From the NCBI GenBank assembly GCA_009838735.1, contig VXQZ01000039.1, positions 1-34,530 on the forward strand: 34,530 bases of DNA, in the 5' to 3' direction. The translations under genes were made by a program, and so were the position numbers. A model generated the notes under the pieces. That model did no database searches. It had not been told where the DNA came from and saw nothing but the letters and a program-made list of their open reading frames with translations. The stretch is from Chloroflexota bacterium. GTDB taxonomy: Bacteria > Chloroflexota > Dehalococcoidia > Bin125. Positions 2,879 through 13,270 of this stretch are shown here, one piece after another. How positions within the stretch are numbered: the stretch's first letter is position 1; each line of letters begins with the position of its first letter.

Positions 2879-3592
2879 TCACACCGCGTCCGCATAGATG
2901 CGGAAGCCGTAGTCGTTGTAGCGGTAGCTGGGCGACAGGCTGGAGCGGGCGCTGACCCGTGTGAACTTGATTCGGTGCCGCCAGGAGCCGCCGCGGCTGG
3001 CGCGCCGCATGCCGCTGACCGGTCCGGCAGGTTCGGCCCGTGGCGAGACGTCGTAGTAGCTGCGGTCGTACCAGTCGGAGCACCACTCATGCACGTTGTC
3101 GGCCATGCAGTACAGACCGAAGCGGTTGCGGCAGGCGTCCAGCGGCACGTGCGGATGCTCAGCTGTCGCGACCGACGCCCGAGCCGCCACCTTCGGCCAA
3201 TGCGGGTCGGGCTCGGGCCAGTCTGCCTCCGCCAGCCCGCCCCGAGCCGCGTATTCGCGTTCGGCCTCGGTTGGCAGTCGAAGGCGTGTGTCGGTCTGTG
3301 TTGAGAGCCACTCGCAATAGGCCACGGCGTCGTGCCAGGAGATGCCCACGACGGGCGCATCAGGGATGCGGAAACCGTCCTGCGTCCAGAACGGCGGCGG
3401 CGGGGCTTCGGTGTGTTCGACGAACGCCGCATACTCGTTGTTACTCACAGGTCGCTCCGCGGCCCGAAAGGCCGTCACCGCCACGGCATGCGCCGGTCGC
3501 TCGTCGCTGCGGCGGTCATCGGCGCCCATGATGAACGTGCCGCCTGGGAGGTGGATCAGACGCAACGAAGAGACGGCGGCTGGACTGCTCAT
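2879..3592 (-). CDS. SUMF1 / FGE-sulfatase-domain protein lacking the catalytic cysteines
   Basis: This 237-residue protein is a single SUMF1-type domain. Hallmarks in order are LPGGTFIMGADD, the RPVSNNEYAAF segment, ISWHDAVAYCEWLS, RLPTEAEREYAARGG, DNVHEWCSDWYD and the closing SRGGSW with SYRYNDYGFRIY. True formylglycine-generating enzymes have two active-site cysteines a few residues after the GGSW motif; here that stretch is RHRIKFTRVSARSSLSP, with none. It is therefore probably not a formylglycine-generating enzyme. Related SUMF1 proteins include EgtB-like sulfoxide synthases, binding domains and proteins of unknown role. No ribosome-binding site is obvious. The gene is transcribed away from the palindrome array at 3623-3706, which fills the divergent promoter region. 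Confidence 0.88.
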   Translation of the reverse strand: MSSPAAVSSLRLIHLPGGTFIMGADDRRSDERPAHAVAVTAFRAAERPVSNNEYAAFVEHTEAPPPPFWTQDGFRIPDAPVVGISWHDAVAYCEWLSTQTDTRLRLPTEAEREYAARGGLAEADWPEPDPHWPKVAARASVATAEHPHVPLDACRNRFGLYCMADNVHEWCSDWYDRSYYDVSPRAEPAGPVSGMRRASRGGSWRHRIKFTRVSARSSLSPSYRYNDYGFRIYADAV

Positions 3593-3622: not shown

Positions 3623-3706
3623 TGAATGATAATCATTCACCATCCGCATGATTATCATTCACATCAAGAATGATTGTCATTCAGAATCTGCATGATTATC
3701 ATTCAC
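3623..3706. promoter_or_regulatory. Four palindromic operator-like sites phased at 22 bp
   Basis: Four copies of a palindrome built on ATGATnATCAT are centred at 3631, 3653, 3675 and 3697, exactly 22 bp apart. The first is the fully symmetric 17-mer TGAATGATAATCATTCA; copies 2 and 4 read ATGATTATCATTCAC and copy 3 reads ATGATTGTCATTCA. The core ATGATAATCAT is also the core of the classical Fur box. The array is AT-rich in GC-rich surroundings and lies between divergent genes, with the last copy ending a few bases before the ATPase start codon. It looks like a cooperative repressor site, possibly for a Fur-superfamily protein. Confidence 0.8.
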
Positions 3707-3709
3707 AGC

Positions 3710-4933
3710 ATGACGCAAGATGCGCTTCCCCGGCTCGTGGCGGACAGTCTCGCCGAGCACCTGCGGCTAATGCCGAGCGTCGTCGTGACCGGTGCGCGGC
3801 AGACCGGCAAGAGCACGCTCGTACGCGAGCTCCAGGGCGCTGAGCGTCGCTACATCACCCTCGACGACGCGGAAGCGCTCGGAGCCGCGCGCACCGAGCC
3901 GGAGCAGATTCTCGCTGGTCCGCGGCCCGTCACGATCGACGAGGTACAGCGCGAACCACAACTGATGCTCGCCATCAAACGAGAGATCGATGAGCGCCGA
4001 GCGGCAGGCCGATTTCTGCTCACCGGCTCCGCCAATCTGCTGCTCATGAAGAGCGTCTCGGAAACCCTGGCCGGCCGCGCGAGCTACCTGACGCTCTGGC
4101 CGATGACCCGCACGGAACAGCTGGGACTCGCCCGCTGCGGCGTCTGGGACCAGTTCTTCGAAGCCCCGCCGCAAGACTGGCTGGAGATGCTCGGCGCGCA
4201 AAACTTGCCCAAGGAGGATTGGCGCGCCCTGGCCCGCCGCGGCGGCTTCCCTCCAGCGGCGATCCAGATGCGCACCGACCGGGAACGTGCGATCTGGTTC
4301 GACGGTTACGTGCGTACCTATCTCGAACGCGACCTGCAGAGCCTGTCGAACATCTCCGCGTTGCCCGACTTTCGCAGACTGATGCAGGCCGTCTCGCTGC
4401 GCGTGGGACAACTGGTGAACCAAACCGCCCTGGGGCGCGACATCGGGATGGCGCAGCCCACGGTGCACCGTTACCTCAACCTTCTGGAGACCTCGTACTT
4501 GCTGGTTCGGCTGCCCGCCTATGCGGTCAACCGCAACAAACGACTGATCAAGTCGCCCAAGATCTACTGGAGCGACAGCGGCATCGCCTGGCATCTGAGT
4601 CAACAGCCGGAGCCGCAGGGCGCTCTCCTGGAGAACCTGGTGCTGCAGGATCTCCTGGCATGGCGCGACAGCGGATCAAGCTCCGGCGAGCTCTTCTTCT
4701 GGAGATCGACGCTCGGTGAAGAGGTCGACTTCGTGATCGAGTCGGGCGGCCGACTGCTGCCGATTGAAGTCAAGTCCAGCAGACGGACCCGGCTGTCCGA
4801 CACGAAGCATCTCCGCACGTTCATCGGCGAGTATCCGGAGCGCAGTCTGCCGGGGCTGCTGCTCTACGACGGCGAACGGGCCGAGTGGATCGGGCCCGAT
4901 GTCCTGGCTGTTCCGTGGTGGATGGCGTTTTGA
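3710..4933 (+). CDS. AAA_14 ATPase with DUF4143 C-terminal domain
   Basis: This 407-residue protein has the usual architecture of the ATP-binding DUF4143 family. The N-terminal P-loop domain shows Walker A GARQTGKST (28-36), Walker B PVTIDEVQ (73-80) and a sensor-like RFLLTGSANLL. A middle winged-helix-like part carries YVRTYLERDLQSLSNI and MAQPTVHRYLNLLETSYLL. The C-terminus has a PD-(D/E)XK nuclease-like signature with Asp340 (EEVDFVIES) and Glu353/Lys355 (LPIEVKSS). The biological role of the family is poorly defined. The ATG at 3710 is chosen as the first ATG in frame giving the canonical N-terminus; an upstream in-frame TTG at 3674 lies inside the operator array. There is no Shine-Dalgarno sequence, since the last palindrome occupies that place, so the mRNA may be leaderless. 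Genes of this family move between genomes often. Confidence 0.92.
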   Translation: MTQDALPRLVADSLAEHLRLMPSVVVTGARQTGKSTLVRELQGAERRYITLDDAEALGAARTEPEQILAGPRPVTIDEVQREPQLMLAIKREIDERRAAGRFLLTGSANLLLMKSVSETLAGRASYLTLWPMTRTEQLGLARCGVWDQFFEAPPQDWLEMLGAQNLPKEDWRALARRGGFPPAAIQMRTDRERAIWFDGYVRTYLERDLQSLSNISALPDFRRLMQAVSLRVGQLVNQTALGRDIGMAQPTVHRYLNLLETSYLLVRLPAYAVNRNKRLIKSPKIYWSDSGIAWHLSQQPEPQGALLENLVLQDLLAWRDSGSSSGELFFWRSTLGEEVDFVIESGGRLLPIEVKSSRRTRLSDTKHLRTFIGEYPERSLPGLLLYDGERAEWIGPDVLAVPWWMAF

Positions 4934-6673: not shown

Positions 6674-9600
6674 ATGACCGTCTGCGGTCTCAGTGTCTGG
6701 CTGCCTCGAGCAGCCGGATTGACGCTGTGCGCCTGTTCGGTTCTCGTTTCCATACATGTCGGGTTAGCACAGGGCGCACCCGTCATTGATTCGAGCAGCG
6801 TCGACGGATCAACGCTGACCATCACCTTCTCAGAATCCCTGACCGCCTCCAGCAGCGCAGTGGCGTCGGAGTTCGCCGTCAAGCACGGCGAGGAATCCGT
6901 CTCCGTGTCTTCCGCCGAAGTCGGCGGCGCCGTCGTCACGCTGACCCTGACGGAAGCGGTCCCGGATGTCGATTGCAGCGACGAGAGCGTCAGCGTTGGC
7001 TTCTCGCCAGTGAGTTCCTCCCTCATCGGCGTCGGTGGGGGAACGATCGAGCAGTTCTCGGACCAGAGCGTCGCCAACCGTACCGACGCAGCGCCCCGGA
7101 TCGACTCGATCGAATCAGACGCCACTGGTCGATACATCTACGTCACCTTCTGCGAAGCGATCGCCGATCTCAGCTATCAGTGGTCCGACTTCTCCGCCTT
7201 CAAGGTCTCGGTGGATGGCGTCACGCGACCGGTCAATGATCTGTTGCGGCGCTCGGACTCGCCCAACCGGCTCGACATCCAGTTGAGCCGCAGTCAGGCG
7301 ATCAGCGAAGGCGACTCCGTGACGCTCGCCTACGATCAGCGCCGCGCCAACGCCGACTATCCGCTTGCCGACCTCGATCAGGGGAACCAACTGGTCGAGA
7401 GCTGGGCCGCGCGCTCGGTGACCAACAACGTTGACGGTCCGCCCACGCTGCAAACGGTCTCCGCGCTATACGAGGTCGTCACGTTGACCTTCAGCGAGCA
7501 ACTCGATGAGGACAGCGTCCCTGACGCGAGCGCCTTCACGATCGGCGGCGTTCAGAATGTTCCGGCCGTGGACGACGTGACCGTCTCGGGGCAGACCGTC
7601 ACCCTGACACTCGACGGCATCCTCCACAGCCGTGACTCGCCCACGTACACGCTGAGATATCTCGAGCCGAACCAGGCGCCGCTCAGGCAACTGGACGGCG
7701 CGCACAACGTCGCTGACGTCTTCTCGTTCCAGTTCAAGAGCAGCACGCCCGACCGGAAGCCGGCGGTCAGCGAAGCGGCGGTAGACGGTTCGGTCCTCAC
7801 AATCACGTTCGATCTGCCGCTCAAGGCGGTCGCCCCGGCCTCGGCGTTCACTGTCGCCGGCGAAGTCGAAATCACGGTGACAGCGGCGGCGTTCGAGGGC
7901 TCTGTGGTCACGCTGACGCTCTCGCCCGCGGTGACCGTCGATTCCTCGATCACGGTGTCCTACTCGGTGCCCGACTCACCGCCCAGGATTGAGGCGCGCA
8001 ACAACCGCGACGTGGACGCGTTTCGCAGTCAGCCCGTGACCAACAGGACGTCGGCGCCAGTTCCCGAGTTCAGCCGGGCCGAGACCTCGGCCGACGGGAC
8101 CAGACTCACCATCAACTTCACGCTCCCGCTCGACGCGACAGCCGAGGGAACGCCTGCAGCGTCTTCATTCTCGTTGTCGGGCACAACTGCCTCGGTCTCG
8201 TCGGTCACGGTCTCAGGCAGCGGCGTGACTCTTAGCCTGGCGCCCCTGGCTGATCTGGGCCAGGTGATTGTGGTGAGCTACACGCCGCCCGAAGAGGAAT
8301 CCGAACCAAGACTGCAGTCGCTCGCCCACCAGAAAATGGTCGGGGCATTCAGTGGGCAGCCGGTCACCAACTCCACCGACGGCAAGCCCCGTCCGCTCTC
8401 GGCGACGGTCGCTGCCGACCAGATCGAGATCACGTTTGATCGGTACTTGGACAGCCAGTCGGAGCCCGCGGCTTCCACGTTCGCGCTCGGCGGAGTCGCG
8501 GCGACGGTTTCCGATATCTCTATCGAGGGCAAGATCCTGACCCTCACTGTCGATCCAGAAGTTACGCATCGTGATTCGATCACGGTTGGCTACACACAAC
8601 CGGCCGAGACGCCGCTCAAGCGGGCAGGCAGTTCACTGCTGGTCGACTCGTTTGTGGAACTCGGAGCGACGAACAACACCGAAGATCCGACGCCGACATT
8701 TCGCTCGGCTTCGGTGGACGCCGCCGGGCGGACCTTGACGATTGTCATGTCCCATGCCTTGCTGGCAACCTCGGTCGGCACTCCCGCCGCATCGACATTC
8801 ACTCTCATCGGCAGCACCTCGGCCGTGGTTGAATCGGTCAAGATCAACGGATCCAGCATCGAGCTGACCCTGAGTCCACTAGCAGACCTCAATGAGACGG
8901 TCAGCGTCAGTTACCAACCGCCGAGCGACGCCACGGCCTCCGCCCTGCAGAGTCTCGATGGCGAGTGGAAGACGGCTGCCTGGTCGGTTCAGCCAGTGAC
9001 CAACCATGCCGACGGCGTGCCAAGACCGGTGAGCGGGAGAGCAAATGGACACACGGTCGTTCTGACGTTTGATCGCGACCTGGATGAGACCTCCGTCCCA
9101 CCCAAGGCAGATTTCAGCATCGCTCCAGGCGAGATCGTCGTGAGCGGAGTCGATATCGACGACGACACGGTGAACCTCACGCTGTCAACTGCGCTCCAGC
9201 ACGACGACGACGTCTCCGTGACGTACTCCGCGGCGGACGACGTCAAGTTGAAGCGCGACGGTCACGAGCTGGCGGTGTCAGCATTTGACGAAGTCGAAGT
9301 CACGAATGAGACGCCGGAGCCCCTGTTGCGCAGGATCGTCGGTAACCGGCAAGCGATCGTCGTGTCCTTCTCGAAGTCGTTAGACGTCAACTCCACGCCC
9401 GCAACCTCTGCCTTCTCTCTGGGGGCGGATCAGCCCGTCGTCAGCGAGGTGACCGTCAACGCCATGACGGTCGACCTCACCCTCGACCGAGCGCTGAGCG
9501 AAGGCGCGGCGTACACGTTGACCTACACGGCGCCCTCGGATTCTCCTTTGACAGCGTCCGACGCTTCGGAGATACCAGGCTTCTCAAAATCCGTGACCAA

Positions 9601-12600
9601 CCAGACTGATGTCGCTCCGCGGGCGATCTCTGCAACAGGTGACGGATCCACAGTGACGATCGGGTTCGATCAGTCGCTGGACGATGGCTCGAGCCTGACG
9701 GGGAGCGCATTGAGCATCTCGGCAGATCCGGGGGCAACTGCGACCGCCGTGTCGTACGTAGACGCCTCGATTGAGTTGACCCTGTCGCGGCCGCTGGCCG
9801 AGGACGAGTCAGCCTCAATTTCTTACATGCAGCCATCAACCGGGGGAATCGCCGACCCGTCCGGTAACCGGACGGAGTCCTTCGCGATCACCGTCGACAA
9901 TCGGACCGACACGGCGCCAGTACCAGTGTCGGGAACCGTCGAGGGCGACACGATCACGATCACGCTGGACCAGGCCCTGGCCGCCGCTTCCCTCTTCGAC
10001 CTGGATCTGGAGGACAACAGTGTCGTGCTCGACCACTTCACACTGACGGGATCCGACGCGGAAGACACCGACGTGATTCGAGTTGTGGTGTCCAACGGCG
10101 GACCGAACAACGTCGGCAAGATCGTGCTCACCTTATCCAGAGCGACTCGGGAAGGTGAAGCGCTGACGATCAGCTACTTCCCCAACTCCGGAAGCATCCG
10201 GATTCGGGATGACGATGCCGGAAAGAACCGGGCAGAGATCAACAGATATGCGCTAACCAATCTGAACGATGAACCACCGGTCGTCGAGTCGGCGAAGGTC
10301 GACGGAACGACCCTGGTTGTCACGTTCGATCAGGAACTCGATGCAGATTCAACACCTGACGTCTCGGCCTTTTCGCTGTCTGCCGACGGTCCGGCAATCT
10401 CCACGGCTTCGATCGCAGGAGCGGTACTGACGCTCACGCTGGCGACGACCGCTATTGAAGACGCCGAATACCAGTTGACGTACACACCGCCCGTGACCGA
10501 CCGGATCCGCGATCCAACGGGAAATGACGCTGTCGGCTTCTCCAGGGATGTCGACAATGCCACCGACTACGCGCCAACCCCAGTCTCGATCAAGACGAAT
10601 CAGGCAGGCACAGAGGTAACAGTCAGATTCGACCAGGCAGTGTTGATACCCGATACGTTCGAAAAGACGTCCTTCAGCTTCGACACAGACGAGCAGATTC
10701 ACTCCGTCATCGTGGATCCGAATGTTCGCGGGAGCGTGCAGCTGATTCTCATTCTCGAGAGCAATTCCGCCATTCGCGAAGGCGCCGTCATCAACCTGGA
10801 GTACGAGCCGCCAACATCTGGGGGTCTGCGGGACGACGACGCTGGAAACCTGCTGGAGTCGTTCACAGAGCCGGTCGATAACACCGTTGACGTGGCCCCG
10901 CTCCTGACGGAAGCGACGGTCAATCGCGACTCCGTATCGCTCAGGTTCGATCAACCGTTGGACACCGATCATGTCCCACCGGCGAATTGTGATCAACTGC
11001 CAATCCAGTCGGAACGGGCAGCATGCCATGAGGTTCCGGACATCGCGTGGTTTCGCATAACTCGAGACGCCACCGAGGAACTGGAAGTCGAGGAAGTGAA
11101 GGTGAGCGGCTCCGTCGTCGAGCTCGTGTTGCGCAACACAGTCTCCAGGAACGCCGTGATCACGCTGGCGTACGCTCGTGAGTCACTCGCGGATGGCACG
11201 TACAACCTGCGCGACACATCAATGCCGCACCATCCCGTCGCCTCATTCGGCCCGATTCAAGTCACCAATCTGACCGCGGCCGCTGCCCTCGAGGTGGCAT
11301 TTGATCGGCTCCGACCGGACAGGATCGAAGTGAGCTTCGACGGTCCGCTGTCGAAGACGGCAACAGACGGTCGGTCGCTGGTCACGGTCTCCGTCGACGA
11401 GACTCCCGTCGATGTCGAGTCGGTGAACACCGACGGTTCCAATCTGACGCTGAAGTTGAAACAGCCAGTGACCGAATGTGCCCCCGTTTCGCTGACATAC
11501 GTTCCCGGAGACGCGCCGCTGCTCGACATTGATGGACGTGAGGTAGTCGCGTTTGCATTCCAGGTCGCCAATCTGCTCAACCCGCAATGGGGTCTCAGCT
11601 GTCTGCAGTCCGATGTCGGGGCGCTGCAACTGACCTTCACCGATCTGTCGTTGCTGCAGAGACAAGGATTCGCGTGGCAACTCACGGTCAACGAGCAAGA
11701 CCGGGCATTTCGCACGGAGGAATCCGAGCGCGCGCTGCTCTTGAGGCCTGCGAAGTCGATCTGCGAAGGCGATATCACGATCGTCAGGTACTCCTCCGAT
11801 CTGTCGCCCGATCGACTTCAACTGGAGCGAACCATTCGCGTCGCGGCCCCGTGCGCGTTATCCGCCTCGGCAGACGGCGAGCGCTTGAGCATCACCTTCG
11901 ACGGTCAGTTGGACGGATCACCGGCCGATCTGTCGGGGTTCTCCATCAGCGGCCGGGCCTCCCTGGAGGCGGTCGAGGGCGTCGAGGAACAGGTACTGAA
12001 ACTCAGATTGACCCCGCCCGGCTTGCCCGAGGGCGACAAGGCCGAGATCTCATACGAGGGAGACAGTCTGATCAGAGGCGAGTTGACCGTCGGCCCGTTT
12101 GTGCTGCCGGTCCTCGACAGGACTGCCCCTCCCCAGCTCGAGTCGGCCTTCGCCCTGAACACCTCAGTGTTTCTGACGTTCGACCAGCCCTTGATTGAAC
12201 GGTCAGTGCCCGCCTCGCGCTTCATCCTCAGCGGGCCCGGCATCGACGCTCACGTGTCGGCCGTCAGCCTGACCGGCTCATCCGTCTACCTGGAACTGTC
12301 CGACCAACTGCCGGACGACCCCGACCTGTTCGGTCTCGTCTACCTGGCCGCGACGCGCGGCGGACTGGCCGGACTGACCGGATCCCGGGTCCCCGACTCC
12401 GTCTTCCTGGTCCGTAACTACACCGAAACGCCGCCAACCGTACTTTCCGCTGAGGCGAATTCCTCAGAAATCGAATTGACCTTCGACCAGGAGATTGAGC
12501 CGGATGGTGCACTGCCTGCCGATTTCACAGTTGTCGCAGGACACAGATCGATCTCGGTGGCATCCCTGAGTTGGTCGCCGGTGAGCGTGACGCTAACCCT

Positions 12601-13270
12601 GGATGAGCAAGTCACGTCACTCGATGCTGTCGTGTTGCGCTATGCGCCGGGTGAAGGCCGGAACATCCGGGATCGATCGCACCAGGAGCTGGAAGCGTTT
12701 GAGCTCCGCGCCCAGAATCTGACTTCCGCGCCGATCTCGATCGCCGAGCGAGTCGCCGAAGCCGAGCTCCGTGCTAGCAGCGGGACCACCACCTTCGCGC
12801 ATGAGCTGGTCCGCGGATTCGCCTCTCTTGAGGGAATACGGGTCAGCCTCGCCAGCGGAAACGGGTGGACCAGGGTCGCCCGAGCGGATCTGCAAGTCTC
12901 TGTCGATGCCTCGCGCATCGGAGCCGCATCGACGCGAATCGAAGTGGCCCCGATTGACCACCTCGAGACGATGCTGGAACAGCTCGAAACCGGTGCGTCA
13001 TCCTGCTGGAATCCTGATGCATCGGATCGATTCACAGCCTGGTGGATCGGCGCCAGCGATATTCATGGCGTGCCCGCTGAGGACCGAATCAGAGTCATGC
13101 TCACCGGAGTCTTCGACCCCTTTCATACCGCCAGAATCTGCGTCATGAACCTCGCTACCGGCGATTGGCGTGTGCATAGACCCGGCCGGCCAATGGTCGC
13201 GCCGGCGTTGGTATTGATACACGAGATTCCCGTGACGATTAGCCGCGATCAGCTGTCTCTCGCAGGGTGA
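6674..13270 (+). CDS. Giant secreted protein with about 19 SwmB-like Ig/beta-sandwich repeats
   Basis: This 2198-residue protein begins with a signal peptide (hydrophobic AAGLTLCACSVLVSI, likely cleavage near residues 33-36, around GLAQGAP). It continues as about 19 diverged repeats of 90-130 residues. Each repeat follows the plan xPxxxSAxVDGxxLTITFDxxLD, then SAFSL, then VxLTLxxAL, then VTYTPP, and ends in a linker such as VTNxTD. This matches the SwmB-type repeats seen in large surface and adhesion proteins. Repeats 14 to 17 are the most diverged. The last 180 or so residues form a different, non-repeated domain containing TAWWIGASDIHG and a possible disulfide pair. No LPxTG motif, S-layer anchor or terminal membrane helix is visible, so the mode of attachment is unclear. 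It is probably exported by Sec, with roles in adhesion or the cell envelope. Its 3' end overlaps birA by 32 bp, convergently. Confidence 0.88.
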   Translation: MTVCGLSVWLPRAAGLTLCACSVLVSIHVGLAQGAPVIDSSSVDGSTLTITFSESLTASSSAVASEFAVKHGEESVSVSSAEVGGAVVTLTLTEAVPDVDCSDESVSVGFSPVSSSLIGVGGGTIEQFSDQSVANRTDAAPRIDSIESDATGRYIYVTFCEAIADLSYQWSDFSAFKVSVDGVTRPVNDLLRRSDSPNRLDIQLSRSQAISEGDSVTLAYDQRRANADYPLADLDQGNQLVESWAARSVTNNVDGPPTLQTVSALYEVVTLTFSEQLDEDSVPDASAFTIGGVQNVPAVDDVTVSGQTVTLTLDGILHSRDSPTYTLRYLEPNQAPLRQLDGAHNVADVFSFQFKSSTPDRKPAVSEAAVDGSVLTITFDLPLKAVAPASAFTVAGEVEITVTAAAFEGSVVTLTLSPAVTVDSSITVSYSVPDSPPRIEARNNRDVDAFRSQPVTNRTSAPVPEFSRAETSADGTRLTINFTLPLDATAEGTPAASSFSLSGTTASVSSVTVSGSGVTLSLAPLADLGQVIVVSYTPPEEESEPRLQSLAHQKMVGAFSGQPVTNSTDGKPRPLSATVAADQIEITFDRYLDSQSEPAASTFALGGVAATVSDISIEGKILTLTVDPEVTHRDSITVGYTQPAETPLKRAGSSLLVDSFVELGATNNTEDPTPTFRSASVDAAGRTLTIVMSHALLATSVGTPAASTFTLIGSTSAVVESVKINGSSIELTLSPLADLNETVSVSYQPPSDATASALQSLDGEWKTAAWSVQPVTNHADGVPRPVSGRANGHTVVLTFDRDLDETSVPPKADFSIAPGEIVVSGVDIDDDTVNLTLSTALQHDDDVSVTYSAADDVKLKRDGHELAVSAFDEVEVTNETPEPLLRRIVGNRQAIVVSFSKSLDVNSTPATSAFSLGADQPVVSEVTVNAMTVDLTLDRALSEGAAYTLTYTAPSDSPLTASDASEIPGFSKSVTNQTDVAPRAISATGDGSTVTIGFDQSLDDGSSLTGSALSISADPGATATAVSYVDASIELTLSRPLAEDESASISYMQPSTGGIADPSGNRTESFAITVDNRTDTAPVPVSGTVEGDTITITLDQALAAASLFDLDLEDNSVVLDHFTLTGSDAEDTDVIRVVVSNGGPNNVGKIVLTLSRATREGEALTISYFPNSGSIRIRDDDAGKNRAEINRYALTNLNDEPPVVESAKVDGTTLVVTFDQELDADSTPDVSAFSLSADGPAISTASIAGAVLTLTLATTAIEDAEYQLTYTPPVTDRIRDPTGNDAVGFSRDVDNATDYAPTPVSIKTNQAGTEVTVRFDQAVLIPDTFEKTSFSFDTDEQIHSVIVDPNVRGSVQLILILESNSAIREGAVINLEYEPPTSGGLRDDDAGNLLESFTEPVDNTVDVAPLLTEATVNRDSVSLRFDQPLDTDHVPPANCDQLPIQSERAACHEVPDIAWFRITRDATEELEVEEVKVSGSVVELVLRNTVSRNAVITLAYARESLADGTYNLRDTSMPHHPVASFGPIQVTNLTAAAALEVAFDRLRPDRIEVSFDGPLSKTATDGRSLVTVSVDETPVDVESVNTDGSNLTLKLKQPVTECAPVSLTYVPGDAPLLDIDGREVVAFAFQVANLLNPQWGLSCLQSDVGALQLTFTDLSLLQRQGFAWQLTVNEQDRAFRTEESERALLLRPAKSICEGDITIVRYSSDLSPDRLQLERTIRVAAPCALSASADGERLSITFDGQLDGSPADLSGFSISGRASLEAVEGVEEQVLKLRLTPPGLPEGDKAEISYEGDSLIRGELTVGPFVLPVLDRTAPPQLESAFALNTSVFLTFDQPLIERSVPASRFILSGPGIDAHVSAVSLTGSSVYLELSDQLPDDPDLFGLVYLAATRGGLAGLTGSRVPDSVFLVRNYTETPPTVLSAEANSSEIELTFDQEIEPDGALPADFTVVAGHRSISVASLSWSPVSVTLTLDEQVTSLDAVVLRYAPGEGRNIRDRSHQELEAFELRAQNLTSAPISIAERVAEAELRASSGTTTFAHELVRGFASLEGIRVSLASGNGWTRVARADLQVSVDASRIGAASTRIEVAPIDHLETMLEQLETGASSCWNPDASDRFTAWWIGASDIHGVPAEDRIRVMLTGVFDPFHTARICVMNLATGDWRVHRPGRPMVAPALVLIHEIPVTISRDQLSLAG

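Follow-up and report, generated by a model that had tools for sequence, protein, structure and literature searches.

A phased operator array upstream of a PDC-S01-family ATPase-nuclease gene, probably read by the ATPase itself

The PDC-S01 proteins, in which an ATPase and a PD-(D/E)XK domain are fused, rank fourth among defence systems across prokaryotes; validation is pending for most such candidates (PMC12988326). PDC-S01 is a PADLOC defence candidate (Payne et al. 2024, a preprint cited through PMC12988326). The literature searched for DUF4143, PF13635 and PDC-S01 together with operators or iterons contained no description of an array like the one reported here, nor did it describe a PDC-S01 operator, the architecture of its promoter or any self-regulation; the author of an earlier note on this DNA likewise did not recognize phased operators in front of this ATPase family as something described. 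Defence genes can be controlled by DNA-binding regulators, as they are by the C proteins of restriction-modification systems. BrxR-type WYL regulators (PMC9122601) and RptR (PMC12255303) are reported to be DNA-binding repressors of defence loci. The locus described here would resemble all three in that a DNA-binding repressor regulates defence expression, but they are the products of dedicated regulator genes, whereas at this locus the sites are probably read by the effector.

The window (the whole stretch of 34,530 nucleotides analyzed, from a Chloroflexota bacterium) carries an ATPase gene (bp 3710–4933, + strand) whose 407 amino acid product was assigned by Pfam to AAA_14/DUF4143 and by PADLOC to the PDC-S01 candidate defence proteins. 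It matches the PADLOC PDC-S01 profile PDLC04790 over residues 1–404, essentially its full length (E = 5.5e-115), and all of the 82 aligned homologues match PDC-S01 models as well. The protein has the expected fusion of an AAA_14 ATPase and a DUF4143 region, with a PD-(D/E)XK nuclease-like end at amino acids 327–402 (bp 4688–4915, + strand) in which E338, D340, E353 and K355 are conserved. Its AlphaFold2 model, run without plasmid-derived alignment rows (mean pLDDT 94.5), is a STAND-type NTPase with a winged helix-turn-helix at amino acids 237–270 (bp 4418–4519, + strand), whose predicted recognition helix comprises amino acids 249–261 (bp 4454–4492, + strand). The best solved relatives in a structure comparison are the archaeal Walker-type/STAND ATPases PAB2304 (2qen; Z 16.2, rmsd 5.0, 254 aligned) and SSO1545 (2fna; Z 14.3); next come modules of NLRs and CED-4, with Avs5 further down (Z 11–14 for these); the combined NTPase and winged-helix fold is common to the ATPase model and to all of these. 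A PDB sequence search with the ATPase gave nothing beyond a weak match to 2fna, and PHROGs and NCBIfam searches gave nothing useful for it.

The winged-helix domain of NLRs, CED-4 and Apaf-1 is an autoinhibitory part of these proteins, and we know of no case in which it acts as a sequence-specific DNA reader; the winged helix of the window ATPase differs from them in that it apparently reads an operator, as judged from the covariation described below. Orc1/Cdc6, at rank 2 in a Foldseek search with the model, is an AAA+ ATPase whose winged helix binds repeated ORB sites, often beside its own gene. The two systems share an AAA+ ATPase, a winged helix and repeated sites, but the window sites overlap a promoter, the window ATPase has a PD-(D/E)XK end, and nothing about the locus suggests an origin.

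Four unstranded 17 bp palindromic sites lie between the ATPase gene and a divergent FGE-sulfatase-domain gene (bp 2879–3592, − strand, starting at 3592) that is a neighbor only and stands outside the array-ATPase unit. Site 1 (bp 3623–3639, TGAATGATAATCATTCA) is centered at 3631 and is a perfect palindrome except for its center base; site 2 (bp 3645–3661, CGCATGATTATCATTCA), site 3 (bp 3667–3683, AGAATGATTGTCATTCA) and site 4 (bp 3689–3705, TGCATGATTATCATTCA) are centered at 3653, 3675 and 3697, respectively. The successive spacings are thus 22, 22 and 22 bp, just as the earlier note had it, and a repeat search recovers the array as a 22 bp family. The same note placed the sites in AT-rich DNA between divergent genes, and the array indeed lies in a dip to 38% GC inside ~68% GC DNA. 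It also had the last site abutting the ATPase ATG at bp 3710; site 4, with its center 13 bp 5′ of the ATG, in fact stops 4 bp short of it. A scan of the 3.15-Mb genome allowing up to three mismatches found the four array sites and three weak sites with three mismatches each, and the reversed control pattern gave three matches, as many as the weak sites. The further genomic sites for which the note had suggested a scan are therefore absent above background, and since only the array stands out, the four sites are far beyond chance. Farther along the window, a 2198 amino acid ORF (bp 6674–13,270, + strand) contains many similar beta-rich repeats that look SwmB/Ig-like by eye.

A promoter can be read from the sequence of the array itself. 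The predicted −35 hexamer TTGTCA (bp 3674–3679, + strand) lies in site 3 and the predicted −10 hexamer TATCAT (bp 3697–3702, + strand) in site 4, with a 17 bp spacer between them; the −10 is 7 nt before the ATG, and the predicted transcript is leaderless. The same geometry is present in two relatives (L006 and L008) and in a Thermus homologue (L161, discussed below). Among relatives with palindromes like those of the window (class A, of the type TGAATG-n5-CATTCA), the most common position of a site center is −13 from the start codon (28 of 52), and 21 of 52 have a TAnnnT hexamer whose first base is at −13; in the other homologues TAnnnT starts at −12 or −13 in 48 of 129. Shine-Dalgarno-like cores are found in only 4% of class A relatives and 15% of the others. 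This rarity, together with the fixed distance of TAnnnT, indicates that the ATPase transcript is probably leaderless and its promoter inside the array. The register even extends into the coding region: at the 44 sites with a start codon exactly 13 bp after the center, the TG of that codon opens a further in-phase half-site, which matches the variant of its own gene at 4.14 of 6 positions (control words, 1.28). In most close relatives the start codon itself begins such a half-site, and the window's version is weak (TGACGCAA). The earlier suggestion of a phased operator dedicated to the ATPase, from which a bound protein would obstruct promoter and start alike, fits this arrangement well, as the predicted −10 is within the last site.

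The same sites were to be sought upstream of homologous ATPases, and they are present there. Three orthologues from the same genus (in G009, G005 and G011, with 85, 67 and 63% protein identity) have four to five copies, some degenerate, in the same 22 bp register and ending at the start codon. Seven members of the genus lack the ATPase; in these the genes on either side of it are directly adjacent and there is no array. Another genome, G002, has a decayed ATPase fragment (L009, L109; G002:C41) from which the array, the start codon and the first codons are deleted, and this is, on the sequence, a natural loss of the whole array-ATPase unit. Array-forming matches within the genus occur at the ATPase only. 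A simple local repeat tract was considered and rejected, since the sites are kept in orthologues with 63–85% identity while the DNA between them has diverged.

A wider set of 251 homologues (195 nonredundant) covers many phyla and takes in plasmids as well as viral contigs, the last of these contributing 11 relatives; most loci of the set are from metagenome assemblies. Each upstream region was compared with itself at lags of 12 to 39, and scores of at least 8 were counted. Repeats at lag 22 are present upstream of 84 of 194 nonredundant homologues (43%) and at lag 23 upstream of 34 of 194 (17.5%); the corresponding values are 1.0 and 1.4% for other windows in the same loci and 2.3 and 0.5% for the upstream regions of 396 other ORFs. 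The remaining lags between 12 and 39 were not raised in the homologue upstream regions. The class A palindrome is found upstream of 59 of 195 homologues (4 of 585 in-gene windows), stands before related ATPase genes of Chloroflexota, Pseudomonadota, Gemmatimonadota, Planctomycetota, Bacteroidota, Actinomycetota, Myxococcota and Thermus, and its successive copies are 22 bp apart in 27 of 29 cases; by a strict cut, 38 of 55 class A relatives have a single strong site rather than an array. A second class, B, has 22–23 bp direct repeats, the division into A and B being a rough one, such as CAATTGGACG. Distant PDC-S01 homologues (L092, L083, L100, L075, L292 and others) have such class B repeats or other direct repeats upstream, and in a minority of them (class C; L093, L104, L105 and L072) one long AT-rich inverted repeat could be seen by eye over the promoter.

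On the protein tree, the scatter of host phyla is close to that obtained by shuffling. When 24 genomes were scanned for the palindrome, 21 had matches, all at the ATPase gene except for one orphan copy in G343; the scan gave no match in the other three, whose sites are more diverged. Apart from that one orphan, array and gene thus occur together. The orphan is an array of two to three sites (L125 bp 3511–3556; G343:C2 at about 5251) that follows an intact ATPase gene at a distance of 0.8 kb, past a VapBC-like pair, and has no ATPase gene after it; it is possibly a remnant of a second copy.

The half-site arms vary between lineages (CATTC, CACCC, CGCTC, CGTCC and CCACC), and this variation follows the ATPase. 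The half-site bases of 59 homologues were compared with about 359 protein columns, the other columns serving as a control for relatedness because all share one phylogeny. For half-site position +4 the top column is Q249 (rank 1 of 359; 0.55, the next being 0.37), for +5 the first two are Q249 and H253, and for +6 they are P250 and Q249. In the AlphaFold2 model, residues 249, 250 and 253 are located where the recognition helix begins. In a stricter set of 52 sequences Q249, H253 and P250 rank 1, 2 and 4, and E392, which is outside the recognition helix, ranks third. On a tree built without the helix-turn-helix columns, H253 becomes Q at every one of the three T to C changes at +5, and Q249 becomes R at both of the A to G changes at +4; the changes at +6 agree wherever the residue changes, and none is in the wrong direction. 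Independent changes of specificity are few, so sign tests on the pairs are unable to reach 0.05. Covariation with the helix was also sought in class B (29 sequences), and none was detected there; in the palindrome class the sites do covary with the predicted DNA-reading residues. Paralogues within one genome follow the same rule, L047 having R249/Q253 and a CGCT operator and L194 having Q249/H253 and a CATT operator. The pairs L046/L193 and L032/L195 similarly have different operators that fit their own helices.

On these observations the array very probably serves the ATPase as an operator of its own, on which the ATPase-nuclease would bind as phased dimers and repress its own transcription. 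An ATPase dimer would read each palindrome through residues 249, 250 and 253, with one winged helix per half-site, and successive dimers would line up along one DNA face at intervals of 22 bp, or two helical turns. Together they would mask both hexamers of the leaderless promoter, −35 and −10, as well as the start codon, and the ATPase would thereby repress its own synthesis. Operator and reader could move together between phyla and change specificity together because both are in one gene unit, and such joint change would insulate every copy against paralogues that share its cell. Relief of this repression may come with infection or the entry of foreign DNA. A 49% identical homologue on pTT27 of Thermus thermophilus HB27, TT_RS11170, has a single class A site in the same promoter geometry; it lies between IS elements and a VapC gene, near CRISPR-cas. 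Its map position and annotation suggest that it is probably TT_P0211, a DUF4143 gene whose expression is raised 6.6-fold by plasmid when the Argonaute TtAgo is present (PMC4406477), and this rise is one pointer to how repression might be relieved. A more tentative possibility, which we regard as doubtful, is that the STAND-like ATPase-nuclease, when at rest, forms a phased filament docked on the promoter of its own gene, and that sensing of an invader releases it, arms the nuclease and derepresses the gene, with a private operator code for each lineage. The winged helix used for docking would then also be the one that controls activation in STAND proteins, and nuclease arming and derepression would occur in one step.

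Binding by the ATPase itself is inferred here from sequence, and an alternative is that a separate, unlinked PDC-S01-specific regulator binds the sites, or that the ATPase activates rather than represses, as the distal sites could act positively. Both are unlikely: the annotated loci examined have no regulator gene alongside the unit, the top covarying positions lie within the ATPase's own helix, and sites that overlap the −10 and the start codon are typical of repression. A quite improbable alternative is that the array serves to replicate or transpose the gene, as an iteron-like or end-like element with the ATPase-nuclease as initiator or recombinase. The scattered distribution across phyla, the presence or absence of the unit between two conserved genes within one genus, and the resemblance to Orc1/Cdc6 and to 22 bp plasmid iterons would fit this, but the sites are 5′ of the gene only, with essentially no second copy at its 3′ end, and the array incorporates a promoter and the start codon. 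It is even harder to credit that the repeats act in RNA as hairpins controlling ATPase translation; palindromic arms with variable centers could form hairpins, and compensatory arm changes suit RNA as well as DNA, but the conserved −10 in the last site puts most of the array upstream of the predicted transcription start, exact 22 bp phasing is a property of the DNA helix, the arm changes covary with a DNA-reading helix, and many relatives have direct repeats instead.

The earlier note equated the core of the sites with the Fur-box core and pointed to Fur, Zur or Mur as regulators to look for. The 13 bp core of site 1, AATGATAATCATT, does match the Fur-box core, and of the regulators to be looked for, one Fur-family protein is encoded in the genome, but no other copy of the site accompanies it. 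In the same-genus orthologues the five central bases vary (GATTT, AATAT, TATTT) while the TGAATG/CATTCA arms and the 22 bp spacing, both unlike those of Fur, are kept; the Fur-like core is thus not the conserved part, and a conserved GATAAT-type box was sought in these orthologues and not found. Binding by a host metal regulator or other global regulator is the least credible alternative and is already largely refuted, since Fur/Zur/Mur regulon sites were sought in the window genome, the genus and genomes of several phyla with none above background, the sites there being essentially only at the ATPase gene, and since such a shared regulator would explain neither arms that change together with the ATPase recognition helix across many phyla nor paralogues in one genome with different operators matching their own helices.

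Self-repression by the ATPase through its own operator, the reading preferred here, would bear on a very common but uncharacterized candidate anti-phage gene, with which the array travels in many phyla. A family-wide, self-specific operator would be a concrete ligand for the PDC-S01 winged helix, and it offers a specificity code that residue swaps could test as well as a natural reporter promoter. It also gives a hypothesis for how PDC-S01 is kept silent and switched on, and points to an effector that is at the same time the repressor of its own gene and whose operator and reader are exchanged jointly between phyla.
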